64,000 bases of DNA from positions 434,001-498,000 of the forward strand of contig NZ_CP145607.1 of NCBI RefSeq assembly GCF_036884275.1. The letters are read 5' to 3'. Below, one piece after another: positions 6,109 through 12,076 of the stretch. The number at the start of each line of letters is the position of its first letter. The first letter of the stretch is position 1. A program made the position numbers and the translations under genes. This DNA comes from Sphingomonas kaistensis. Its GTDB lineage: Bacteria > Pseudomonadota > Alphaproteobacteria > Sphingomonadales > Sphingomonadaceae. The notes below the pieces were generated by a model. That model was given only the letters and a program-made list of their open reading frames with translations. It made no database searches and had not been told where the DNA came from.

Positions 6109-6134
6109 GGCTGAGCGCGCCTAAGTCTTCGGTC

Positions 6135-6221
6135 GTCATCCCGGGCTTGACCCGGGATCCCGCTATTTCCTTCGTCGGCGCCAGAAGCAGAAGCGGGACC
6201 CCGGATCAGGTCCGGGGTTAC
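6135..6221. repeat. REP-like palindrome doublet (REPIN-like)
   Basis: Two related 30-bp units face each other, at 6135-6164 and 6192-6221. The left unit contains ATCCCGGG-cttga-CCCGGGAT and the right unit ACCCCGGA-tcagg-TCCGGGGT, each an 8-bp perfect stem with a 5-base loop. The inner ends TCCCGCT and AGCGGGA are also complementary. Aligned head to head, the units match at 24 of 30 positions. The doublet fills the gap between the aldolase and the exporter gene and ends 8 bases before the exporter ATG. Confidence 0.85.
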
Positions 6222-6229
6222 GGAAGAAA

Positions 6230-8412: not shown

Positions 8413-8531
8413 GTATAAGCCCCCTAATTGCCCGCAAGCTTAGCGCGGCGGCGGCGGTCCGCCAGAGGGGTTCGACGGATCGACGAGCGGCAAGGTTGTG
8501 GGTGGAGGGTGCTGCGCCTAAGTCCACGACC

Positions 8532-11132
8532 ATGCTCGATATCCGTGCGTCGCTGGACGCTCCCGCCGCCCCGCCCGTCATCCGCCGCGAGGACTATCAG
8601 GCGCCCGACTGGCTGGTGCCGGAAGTCGAGCTGGCCTTCGCGCTGGATCCGGCGCGGACGGTGGTGACAGCGCGGCTGACGGTGACGCGCAACGGCAGCC
8701 ACGACCGGCCGCTGAAGCTCGACGGTGAGGAGTTGGAGCTGCTGGCGCTGCGGGTCGATGGCGAAACCCGCGAGCCGCGGTTCGAGGACGGGCGGCTGGT
8801 GGTCGATCTCGCCGGAGAGACGGCGGTGGTCGAGACCGAGGTCGCCATCGCGCCCGAGAAGAACAGCCAGCTGATGGGGCTCTACGCCTCGGGCGGCATC
8901 CTCTGCACGCAGTGCGAGGCCGAGGGCTTCCGCCGCATTACCTTCTTCCCTGACCGGCCCGACGTGCTGAGCCGCTATCGCGTGCGGCTGGAAGCGGACC
9001 GGCAACGCTTCCCCGTGCTGCTGGCGAACGGTAATCCGGTCGAGACCGGCGAAACCGCCGACGGGCGCCATTCCGCGTTGTGGCAAGACCCCTTCCCCAA
9101 GCCCTGCTACCTGTTCGCGGTGGTCGCCGGCGACCTCCAGTGCAACGCCGATACCTTCACCACGATGAGTGGCCGCGAGGTCGAGCTGGGCATCTGGGTG
9201 CGCGAAGCCGACCTGCCGAAGACCGAACTGGCGATGCAGGCGCTGAAGGACAGCTTCGCCTGGGACGAGCGGACCTATGGCCGCGAATATGATCTCGACC
9301 GGTTCAACATCGTCGCCGTCAGCGATTTCAATTTCGGCGCGATGGAGAACAAGGGCCTCAACATCTTCAACACGCGCTACGTGCTGGCCGATCCCGAAAC
9401 CGCGAGCGACGGCGATATCGACGCGGTGGCCGCGGTCGTCGCACACGAATATTTCCACAATTGGTCGGGCAACCGGGTCACCTGCCGCGACTGGTTCCAG
9501 CTGTCGCTGAAGGAAGGCCTCACCGTCTTTCGCGACCAGGGGTTCAGCGAGGATATGGGGTCCGAAGCGGTGCAGCGGATCGATCAGGTGCGGACGCTTC
9601 GCGCGGCGCAGTTCCCGGAGGACGCGGGCCCCCTCGCCCACCCGATCCGGCCGGACTCCTATCTCGAGATCGCCAATTTCTACACCGCGACGGTCTACAA
9701 CAAGGGCGCCGAGGTGATCCGCATGATGCGGACGATTCTAGGGGCCGAGGCCTATCGGAAAGGCACCGACCTTTATTTCGAGCGGCACGATGGGCAGGCG
9801 GTGACCTGCGAGGATTTCGTGCGGGCGATGGAAGAGGCGAGCGGGGTCGATCTGACGCAGTTCCGCTTGTGGTATTCGCAGGCCGGCACGCCGACCGTGA
9901 CGGCGCGGCTGGAGCAGGACGGCGGGCGGACGGCGCTGTATCTCAAGCAGCACGTGCCCGCGACGCCGGGGCAGCCGGACAAGCAGCCGATGGTGATCCC
10001 GCTCAGGGTGGCGCTGATCGGCGCGGAGAGTGGGCGCGAGGTCGCCCCGGAGCGGCTGGTGCTGCTGAGAGGGGCCGAGCAGGTCGAATGGTTCGAAGGC
10101 GTGGACGAGCCCGCGTTCCTGTCGATCAACCGCGGCTTTTCGGCCCCGGTGATCGTCGAGGCGCAGCGCCGGCCCGGCGAGATCGAGGCGCTGGCGGCGG
10201 GCGATACGGACAGCTTCGCGCGGTTCGAGGCCGGGCAGGAACTGATGACCCGCGACCTGCTGGCAGCGATCCGAAACGGCGGCGCGGTCGAGGTCGAAGC
10301 GATCGTCGCGGCGGTGGGCGCGACGCTGCGCAGCCAGTCGCTCGACCCCGCGTTCAAGGCCGACGCCATCGCGCTGCCGAGCGAAAGCCTGCTGATCGAG
10401 AAGCTCGATGCGGCCGATCCGGCGCGGGTGCATGAAGTGCGCGAAGAGGTGCGCCGGGCGATCGGGACGCGGCTCGGCGAGGAGCTGCGCCGCGCTTATA
10501 CCGCAGCGAGCGCAGCCGATCCGGCCAGCCTGTCGGGCGCGGACAAGGGCCTGCGCCGCCTCCGCGCGGCGACGCTGGCGCTGATCGCGGCGGGCGACCC
10601 CGCGCTCGGCGCGAGCCTCGGGCAGCAGCAATATGATGCGGCGCGGACGATGACCGAGCGGCAGTCGGCGCTGATGGTGCTGGCGATGCTCGGGCCGGAT
10701 GCCGCGGGCCAGGCGCTGGACGATTTCTATGTGCGGTTCGAGGCCGATCCTTTGGTCATCGACAAATGGTTCGCGGTGCAGGCGTCGGTGGGGAGCGAAG
10801 GCACGCTGGAGGTGGTCGAGGCGCTTCAGCAGCATCCCGCCTTCACGCTGGCCAACCCCAACCGACTGCGCGCGCTGGCCGGCAGTTTCGCGGGCACGCC
10901 CAGCGCGTTCCACCGCGCCGATGGCAAGGGCTACGACTGGCTGGCCGAGGTGATCGTCGCGGCGGACAAACTGAACCCGCAAACCGCCGCGCGGTTCGTC
11001 GCTCCGCTGGGACGTTGGCGCAAGATCGAACCCGGCCGCGCCGCGAAGATGCGGGCCGCTCTACAACGCATCCTCGCCGAGCCGGGGCTTAGCAAGGACG
11101 TGTTCGAACTGGCGAGCAAGAGTTTGGGTTAA
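8532..11132 (+). CDS. pepN: Aminopeptidase N (M1 family)
   Basis: An 866-residue cytoplasmic zinc aminopeptidase that removes N-terminal residues from peptides, of the gammaproteobacterial PepN type. GAMENKG, which binds the substrate amino terminus, is near residue 270. The zinc motif HEYFHNW has His305, Glu306 and His309, and the third ligand Glu328 is in SLKEGLT. The C-terminal half is the alanine/leucine-rich helical domain of the long M1 enzymes. An upstream in-frame GTG at 8496 would add 12 residues, but the ATG at 8532 gives the family-like start MLDIRAS. The gene ends seven bases before the GIY-YIG element. Confidence 0.95.
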   Translation: MLDIRASLDAPAAPPVIRREDYQAPDWLVPEVELAFALDPARTVVTARLTVTRNGSHDRPLKLDGEELELLALRVDGETREPRFEDGRLVVDLAGETAVVETEVAIAPEKNSQLMGLYASGGILCTQCEAEGFRRITFFPDRPDVLSRYRVRLEADRQRFPVLLANGNPVETGETADGRHSALWQDPFPKPCYLFAVVAGDLQCNADTFTTMSGREVELGIWVREADLPKTELAMQALKDSFAWDERTYGREYDLDRFNIVAVSDFNFGAMENKGLNIFNTRYVLADPETASDGDIDAVAAVVAHEYFHNWSGNRVTCRDWFQLSLKEGLTVFRDQGFSEDMGSEAVQRIDQVRTLRAAQFPEDAGPLAHPIRPDSYLEIANFYTATVYNKGAEVIRMMRTILGAEAYRKGTDLYFERHDGQAVTCEDFVRAMEEASGVDLTQFRLWYSQAGTPTVTARLEQDGGRTALYLKQHVPATPGQPDKQPMVIPLRVALIGAESGREVAPERLVLLRGAEQVEWFEGVDEPAFLSINRGFSAPVIVEAQRRPGEIEALAAGDTDSFARFEAGQELMTRDLLAAIRNGGAVEVEAIVAAVGATLRSQSLDPAFKADAIALPSESLLIEKLDAADPARVHEVREEVRRAIGTRLGEELRRAYTAASAADPASLSGADKGLRRLRAATLALIAAGDPALGASLGQQQYDAARTMTERQSALMVLAMLGPDAAGQALDDFYVRFEADPLVIDKWFAVQASVGSEGTLEVVEALQQHPAFTLANPNRLRALAGSFAGTPSAFHRADGKGYDWLAEVIVAADKLNPQTAARFVAPLGRWRKIEPGRAAKMRAALQRILAEPGLSKDVFELASKSLG

Positions 11133-11138
11133 CTTCCC

Positions 11139-11168
11139 GTCGTCCCGGCGCAGGCCGGGACCTCAGGC
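11139..11168 (+). repeat. Left inverted repeat of the GIY-YIG unit
   Basis: A 30-bp arm beginning GTCGTCCCGGC and ending ACCTCAGGC, with an 8-bp perfect stem and GCAG loop. It includes the stop codon of the nuclease gene (TCA at 11163-11165 on the plus strand). It may also act as the pepN terminator stem, though no T tract follows. Confidence 0.9.
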
Positions 11169-11456
11169 GAGATGGAGATCGGCTGCAAGATCGCGCCATT
11201 CCGAATTGCGTTCGTGGATCAGCCGCAGCTTCCAGAGCCGCGGCCATTCCTTGATGCATGTCTCGCGATGGATGGCTTCGGCGATGGTGTCGTGCTGTTC
11301 GGCAAACACCAGCAAGGTGCAATTGTAGCGTTTGACGAATTGCGAGCCGATGCCAGCGCGGTGCTGCGCGAGGCGTTCGGCGAGATTGGCGGTGACGCCG
11401 GTGTATAACGTTCCGTGCGGTTTGTTTGTGAGAATGTAGACCCAGCCGCCGGTCAT
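11163..11456 (-). CDS. GIY-YIG nuclease domain protein
   Basis: A 97-residue single-domain protein of the UvrC N-terminal/GIY-YIG superfamily (YhbQ/Slx1-like short type). GGWVYILTNK (residues 3-12) and GTLYTGVTANLAERLAQH give the two short strands with the catalytic tyrosines (GIY and YIG variants VYI and YTG) and the conserved arginine. The metal-binding glutamate is probably in EAIHRETCIKEWPR. These proteins are predicted DNA-cleaving enzymes of uncertain role. The gene is alone between inverted repeats, and the left repeat supplies its last codons and stop, so gene and repeat appear to travel as one unit. Confidence 0.9.
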   Translation of the reverse strand: MTGGWVYILTNKPHGTLYTGVTANLAERLAQHRAGIGSQFVKRYNCTLLVFAEQHDTIAEAIHRETCIKEWPRLWKLRLIHERNSEWRDLAADLHLA

Positions 11457-11471
11457 GCTCGCGCTTTAGCT

Positions 11472-11501
11472 GCCTGAGGTCCCGGCCTTCGCCGGGACGA
11501 C
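11472..11501 (-). repeat. Right inverted repeat of the GIY-YIG unit
   Basis: This is the reverse complement of the left arm with a single difference in the loop region. It forms a hairpin with an 8-bp stem GTCCCGGC/GCCGGGAC and CTTC loop. It ends two bases before the stop codon of the neighbouring lipoprotein gene. Confidence 0.9.
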
Positions 11502-11503
11502 GA

Positions 11504-12076
11504 TCAGCCGCCGATCCAGCGCGCGACCTGGTTGGCGACGTTGTTGGCGGCGGCGTTGATCGCGGGGCCGACGGTGACGTTGGTGCCGTCGGCGGGGGCC
11601 GAGGCGGTGAAGCGGCGGGTCTGGACGGTCGCGCCGCGGGCGGCGGTGGCGTCGTAGGTGACGACCACCTGGCCGCTCGCCACGTCATAGCCGAAGCGCT
11701 GCAGCACGCCCGATACTCGGGTGCCGGGGTCGATGCCGGTCTGGCGCGGATCGATGACGACCCGGCCGGTGACGCGCTTCACCGTCTCGCTCAGCAGTTG
11801 CTGGAACAGGCGGTCGGGGGTGTCGAGATATTGGAGGTCCTCGACGTAGGTGACCTGCCCCGAGCGCTCGAGCACCGGCACCCGGACCTGACGCACGTCG
11901 CGGCCGGCGATCGGCAGCTCGATGGTGATCGCTTCGCCCGCTGCGGCGGTGCGCTCGAAGGTTGCACTCGGCGTCGCCGGGGTCAGGGTCAGCAGCGTCG
12001 CCGGGGTCTTGCCGCCGAAGCAGGCCGACAACGACAGGGGCAGCGCCAGGGCGGCGGCGAGAGGCAGAAAACGCAT
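11504..12076 (-). CDS. ABC-type transport auxiliary lipoprotein (PqiC/LptE-like family)
   Basis: A 190-residue lipoprotein with signal MRFLPLAAALALPLSLSAC and a lipobox cysteine at residue 19. The mature part resembles the ABC-transport auxiliary lipoprotein family (PqiC-like), which works with MCE proteins in moving phospholipids between inner and outer membranes. It is the last gene of the mlaE-mlaF-mlaD operon. Its ATG overlaps the stop of the MCE gene by one base (TGATG), showing translational coupling. A soluble MlaC is not encoded here, and this lipoprotein may take over the periplasmic or outer-membrane contact role. Confidence 0.85.
   Translation of the reverse strand: MRFLPLAAALALPLSLSACFGGKTPATLLTLTPATPSATFERTAAAGEAITIELPIAGRDVRQVRVPVLERSGQVTYVEDLQYLDTPDRLFQQLLSETVKRVTGRVVIDPRQTGIDPGTRVSGVLQRFGYDVASGQVVVTYDATAARGATVQTRRFTASAPADGTNVTVGPAINAAANNVANQVARWIGG

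Follow-up and report, generated by a model that had tools for sequence, protein, structure and literature searches.

CGTC-tagged REPs were defined by Di Nocera et al. (2013, PMC3733652), and passages of that survey report them from five phyla, with a wide distribution in alphaproteobacteria, describe head-to-head dimers and count the Neisseria dRS3 repeats among them. The usual CGTC REP of those passages has A-T pairs at stem positions 1 and 2 and a CCA tail, and a dedicated transposase is described there as apparently missing. In the REPtron/RAYT systems, with their GTAG REPs and REPINs (abstract of PMC3733652; see also PMC3116915), the gene of a small DNA enzyme lies between copies of a palindrome that recurs throughout the genome, each system with its own class. 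Here, too, the REPs on either side of the enzyme gene are of the class found across its own genome, but a GIY-YIG nuclease (PF01541) and a CGTC tag take the place of the HUH tyrosine transposase and the GTAG tag. GIY-YIG homing endonucleases (I-TevI) offer another comparison: the site in the window likewise differs between related genomes, being filled in some and vacant in others, whereas the protein is a single 97-aa domain, no intron was seen and the presumed sites are short palindromes. The entry titles of UPF0213-type small GIY-YIG proteins and SLX1 nucleases carry no link to repeats, and a residue that tracks REP class, residue 70, is described here. The term GIY is absent from the main text of PMC3733652 and from passages of PMC12306157 and PMC6006769. 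A search by title or by the start of the abstract found no earlier link between GIY-YIG proteins and REPs; preprints and most subscription papers lie outside this scope, and an unseen report is possible.

The window, that is the whole stretch of 64,000 nucleotides analysed, contains a left REP (11138..11168, + strand), a 97-aa GIY-YIG nuclease gene (11163..11456, - strand), which is the only gene between both arms, and a right REP (11472..11502, - strand), an inverted copy of the left one with its tag outward. The left REP, of class X=G, comprises the CGTC tag (11138-11141), an 8-bp stem (GTCCCGGC/GCCGGGAC), the loop GCAG and the tail CTCAGGC; the loop of the right REP is GAAG. The arms measure 31 nt each, are 97% complementary and are separated by a spacer of 303 nt, so that the near-perfect inverted repeats of the original prediction are confirmed, its 30-bp version being one base short at the outer end. 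Folded alone (-10.5 kcal/mol), each arm leaves the four nucleotides CGTC unpaired and forms an 8-bp stem closed by a 4-nt loop, followed by a 7-nt tail, in agreement with the 8-bp hairpin proposed for each repeat. The coordinates also agree with the statement that the stop codon of the nuclease (11163-11165) lies inside one arm, the left, and its start 15 bases from the other. Because the frame of the flanking pepN-like gene (8496..11132, + strand; an open reading frame whose label comes from the original prediction) stops at 11132 and the next frame at 11504, the cassette takes up the whole gap, as had been claimed. The convergent gene on the far side (11504..12076, - strand; start picked within a longer open frame) is lipoprotein-like by eye. 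Promoter, terminator and Rfam scans returned nothing of weight.

CGTC REPs are marked by an unpaired CGTC end, a stem of 8-9 bp, a loop of 4-5 nt and repetition mostly as head-to-head dimers, and the window arms, with a stem of 8 bp and a loop of 4 nt, show all of these. Measured against the passages of PMC3733652, tag, 8-bp stem, 4-nt loop, dimers and an alphaproteobacterial and sphingomonad home are shared, while the stem starts with GT rather than AT and the tail is CTCAGGC rather than CCA; no enzyme is assigned in those passages, and here there is a candidate, the GIY-YIG nuclease. The A-T pairs at stem positions 1 and 2 and the CCA tail, both absent here, are usual and not defining traits, and many REPs of relatives do start their stem with AT. 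Copies elsewhere in the genome, on which the original prediction had made its reading depend, were found: the core has 48 matches at no more than 2 mismatches (24 on each strand; one palindrome accounts for an overlapping pair), against 0 for a reversed control. In the window alone, 5 sites match the core pattern with no more than 3 mismatches, 2 of them exactly, where 0.04 would be expected. With the overlapping double omitted, 47 core positions remain, of which 36 form 18 dimers and 11 are single. All 18 dimers are head-to-head, with starts 44-60 bp apart, and two of the 11 single REPs, with starts 340 bp apart, are those that frame the nuclease. A CGTC REP dimer of another type, with a CCCGGG stem and a CTTGA loop followed by an inverted partner, occupies 6134-6222 (+ strand) of the window; a nuclease of that class is absent from the genome, and the dimer is perhaps the relic of a lost one.

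The nuclease scores 51.7 bits against the Pfam GIY-YIG family (PF01541; cut-off 22.6), is present once in the 2.79-Mb genome and, in an NCBIfam search, was assigned to no family. The single 97-aa domain is a putative DNA-cleaving enzyme. Tyr7, Tyr18, Arg28, Glu65 (codon 11262-11264) and Asn84 are invariant (1.0) in the aligned rows, and we take these residues to have the catalytic roles of the GIY-YIG Tyr, Tyr, Arg, Glu and Asn. The predicted structure is a confident model (pLDDT 94.7, pTM 0.87), with an SLX1-like fold among its top structural matches.

How is the same site arranged in relatives? The C-terminal part of pepN is present in 70 of the 71 genomes of the genus. At the 29 same-genus pepN loci examined, the nuclease was found at none and the downstream gene at 26. 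In three near relatives (G156, G210 and G154) the two flanking genes stand about 10 bp apart. Relatives with an empty site, as the original prediction required, thus exist, and it is not the case that every relative carries the gene here free of repeats. Three others (G169, G166 and G178), whose pepN part is 86, 85 and 79% identical, have one lone palindrome in the gap, with arms like CGTCCCGG/CCGGGACG, and the remaining relatives have other sequence there. The gap of G212 (L068, about 2424-2520) holds a GTGC-tagged REP-like dimer, and the spot therefore takes in different REP kinds. In G169 no nuclease of this branch was detected, and the 400 kb searched contain neither a perfect CGTC hairpin nor similar palindromes. 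Only 5 of the 30 REP loci of our genome, at four sites, had an orthologue in those 400 kb; aligned to G169, these four further sites have a REP in 0 of 4 cases, and one has a lone CGTCATCCCG palindrome. Nuclease and REPs thus differ together between near relatives, G169 being without both. Judged from the aligned sequences, this joint difference could reflect a gain here or a loss there, neither of which is proven. Lone palindromes starting with CGTC or GTC and CCCG, where this genome has REPs, are seen in L062, L063, L065 (pepN gap) and L212 (near 6903); those in relatives may represent targets, terminators or the scars left by REP pairs. A related gene, interrupted by one stop codon, occurs in G156 of the same genus, with a different REP on both sides (CTGAA stem, CTTGT loop; L232).

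Homologues of the nuclease occur in 105 of the 149 genomes of the family. The family set comprises 150 nucleases among the matches listed, stronger matches only, and a flanking hairpin was scored when a GTC-headed 8-bp stem with a loop of 3-6 nt lay within 200 bp, tag outward. Such hairpins flank 100 of the 150 genes on both sides, 22 on one side and 28 on neither, whereas random points in the same loci had them on both sides in 0 of 3000 cases and on one side in 150. Another inverted repeat spans the gene at 20 of the 28 hairpin-less loci (score at least 14; control, 2.7% of 2280 points). Outside the family, at the best 59 loci of a longer match list and with loops of 3-8 nt allowed, 22 of 59 have hairpins on both sides, 11 on one and 26 on none (control, 0 of 2360 on both and 165 on one); of the 26, 12 show a different inverted repeat with a score of at least 14. 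A third set of named loci numbered 80 among the matches listed, or 77 after removal of the duplicates L315 (Sphingomonas oleivorans), L365 (Porphyrobacter) and L387. The first two repeat loci of family members, from which the family is judged to be that of the sphingomonads. With loops of 3-8 nt, 52 of the 77 have hairpins on both sides, 17 on one and 8 on none, against 2 of 2310 control points on both sides and 122 on one. Both sides are occupied in Erythrobacter, Sphingobium, Rhizobium, Magnetospirillum, Pseudomonas, Rhodanobacter and a Neisseria MAG, and one side in Massilia, Lysobacter and a Labilibaculum (Bacteroidota) MAG; the Scalindua MAG locus has no flanking hairpin.

The REPs can be divided into classes: those with a GNAN loop go by X, the central stem base of CC[X]GC, and others by their loop of the CTTG type. 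The left and right hairpins of a nuclease belong to the same class in 92 of 95 cases (shuffled mean 18.6, maximum 31). Mapped on the nuclease tree, where unlabelled rows form a state and near-copies contribute, class labels change 31 times, against 95.8 when shuffled. When each nuclease is compared with its closest counterpart from a different genus, the two share their class in 95 of 117 cases (shuffled mean 22.7, maximum 41), and in genomes with several classes in 48 of 59, whereas pairs of nucleases inside one genome share their class in 33 of 86. The class thus tracks the enzyme more than the genome, because neighbours from other genera agree and pairs within a genome mostly do not.

Class is also linked to abundance. 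REPs were counted, copied by hand, for the four stem classes with GNAN loops, including nuclease-flanking copies and excluding CTTG-loop classes. On this basis, the median number of REPs of a class in genomes with and without a nuclease of that class is 29 and 1 for A, 43 and 2 for G, 20 and 2 for C, and 5 and 0 for T. Over all four, the median is 25 in nuclease-bearing genomes and 2 in those without (p 5e-9). At least 20 REPs were counted in 71 genomes, 66 of which have the nuclease and 13 a Y1 protein; in the other five (G018, G022, G063, G134 and G136) no nuclease was detectable, a profile search included. Conversely, 20 nuclease-bearing genomes have fewer than 5 counted REPs, CTTG-loop classes being uncounted. 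A cognate pairing of nuclease and REP class is well supported by these sequence comparisons. With flanking hairpins, agreement of class and REP abundance taken together, the suggestion that a GIY-YIG enzyme follows the logic of a REPtron is upheld both inside and outside the family. The two genomes of one genus G063 and G134 have 145 and 184 counted CGTC REPs, and no nuclease of this branch was detected in them.

Which part of the protein could read the class? Position 70 is the most informative on X, with 1.18 bits over shuffled in 66 rows (next column, 0.63). It lies between the near-invariant Lys69 and Trp71, five residues past Glu65, and in the structure model it ends the helix predicted for residues 58-70, which also holds Glu65. 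In the family, X=A goes with Ala in 22 of 23 cases, X=C with Lys in 25 of 25, X=G with Glu, Asn, Asp or Gln in 7 of 8 and X=T with Lys or Arg in 8 of 9, a fit of 62/65 in this discovery set. The pair in the window, X=G and Glu70 (codon 11247-11249), obeys the code. Outside the family, a hairpin was present at 33 loci; 10 were omitted because their loops were of other kinds, and 23 were classed by hand, not blind, from a table that also displayed residue 70, and 19 of the 23 fit; L248 and L273 (CCGAC) were called G, L290 (CTTGC) T and L306 (8-nt loop) C. The named loci, classed by a scripted rule, fit in 37 of 40 cases. These further sets together give 56/63, where shuffling, which ignores relatedness, gives 21.6 on average and 35 at most. 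In place of an independent-pairs test, for which the poorly resolved tree offered 1-3 supported pairs, pairs of like identity were compared: among proteins less than 50% identical, the 157 same-class pairs share residue 70 in 68% of cases and the 932 other-class pairs in 7%, a gap of 0.61, where the next best column reaches 0.28. One genome (G016) has two nucleases that are 76% identical, of classes A and C, with Ala and Lys at position 70. His70 often accompanies REPs with 7-nt loops of the GCTTG type. In chemical terms, Lys or Arg would contact a purine, Glu a cytosine and Ala the methyl group of a thymine.

Evidence on the ends of the element comes from copies within and between genomes. 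Five copies in G139 and one in G071 are alike over REP, gene and REP, with a stop codon in three of the five of G139. Among same-genome copy pairs (29 aligned of 32 tried, judged by eye), about 10 cease to be alike, at one end, no more than about 2 bases from the CGTC tag, and in the remainder likeness extends beyond the tag or ends within a REP. A unit bounded exactly by its repeats is therefore only partly supported, since in other genomes the similarity of copies frequently continues beyond the REPs. Of the single repeat-bounded cassette originally envisaged, what stands is a unit that fills its gap; exact bounds hold only in part, and this genome has no second cassette. An ATGGAG stretch lies near the matching offset of the cassette's left end in 3 of 16 dimers compared, which is suggestive only of REP dimers being internally deleted cassettes. 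Just outside several cassettes of G139 and G071 (L045, L093-L096, L137-L145) there are stretches like GCCGACATTGCGGAC, perhaps a preferred target or companion repeat.

The cassette is probably a GIY-YIG counterpart of a REPtron, whose nuclease would recognise, cut and spread its own CGTC REPs, as far as can be judged from sequence comparison. The nuclease would recognise its own CGTC-tagged hairpin, reading the central stem pair through residue 70, and would cut DNA at REPs, probably when these are extruded or single-stranded, as would suit the SLX1-like branch of GIY-YIG enzymes. To our knowledge, a covalent Tyr-DNA step is not expected of a GIY-YIG nuclease, unlike an HUH enzyme. Repair of the cut, or transfer of an excised hairpin, would then set new copies of REPs and REP dimers elsewhere; in this scheme the REP-gene-REP unit is the autonomous form, and scattered dimers with the same ends are the non-autonomous ones. 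Both this copying route and a spread of REPs by the nuclease, rather than by the host alone, are what we infer. Counting against it are the five REP-rich genomes in which no nuclease was detected, the 20 nuclease-bearing genomes poor in counted REPs and the many loci lacking a flanking hairpin. For small GIY-YIG nucleases at large, it seems fairly probable that they form a second, independent REP-spreading class, each driving its own CGTC REP family with a target set largely by one residue. The nuclease family is the best candidate enzyme for CGTC REPs and would act in their cleavage and mobilisation.

Alternatively, a selfish nuclease may home by cutting pre-existing REPs or other palindromes made by something else, repair then copying the gene in. 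Homing accounts equally for the flanks, the match of class and the residue-70 code; the lone palindromes with similar arms in the pepN gap of G169, G166 and G178 would suit it, as would the existence of REP-rich genomes without the nuclease. Taken alone, however, it leaves unexplained why REPs of a class abound alongside a nuclease of that class and why both are missing in the near relative G169, where a stock of targets is unlikely given the lack of similar palindromes in 400 kb. We regard homing alone as unlikely, though worth keeping in mind, and prefer the nuclease as maker of the REPs because REP abundance follows class and G169 lacks nuclease and REPs.

It is also conceivable, if improbable, that a domesticated SLX1-like enzyme trims or resolves REP hairpins for the host, with REPs that spread otherwise framing the gene for its regulation or termination. 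The SLX1-like fold among the top matches of the model, the conserved catalytic residues and the single copy in this genome would be in keeping with such maintenance, but not the patchy presence (105 of 149 family genomes), the coexistence in one genome of several different nucleases, each of a class of its own, or the stop codons in the G139 copies. A Y1 (HUH) transposase that spreads the REPs, with the GIY-YIG gene as passenger, is very improbable. Y1 proteins do occur in 13 of the 71 genomes with at least 20 counted REPs, and the median counted REPs are 26 with and 13 without one (p 0.056); yet neither this genome nor 125 of the 149 family genomes has a PF01797 match, and passages of the 2013 survey (PMC3733652) state that no Y1 gene with CGTC repeats at its flanks was found. 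A RAYT as driver is largely refuted by the absence of Y1 from REP-rich genomes. As for chance, REPs are frequent between genes in many of the genomes and might simply happen to flank the nuclease, but the near-total lack of control points with hairpins on both sides (0/3000, 0/2360 and 2/2310) makes this hardly credible, and it was rejected.

If the maker reading is true, it supplies CGTC REPs with the enzyme whose apparent absence had been reported, together with a simple code for hairpin recognition, and the nuclease-REP system becomes a non-HUH parallel to RAYT/REPIN biology. A cognate nuclease with a one-residue code would make the origin and spread of CGTC REPs directly testable. It would also give a candidate function to many proteins that carry no more than the name 'GIY-YIG nuclease family protein' or 'putative endonuclease', of whose kind at least 8000 homologues were scored. 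A relative in the Neisseria MAG (L364, 1501-1755) is framed by CGTC hairpins of the CCGAC type and has Glu70. At seven other loci (L048, L130, L134, L140, L161, L188 and L201), related nucleases are framed by palindromes with GTGC, GCGC or similar starts, possibly further tag types.
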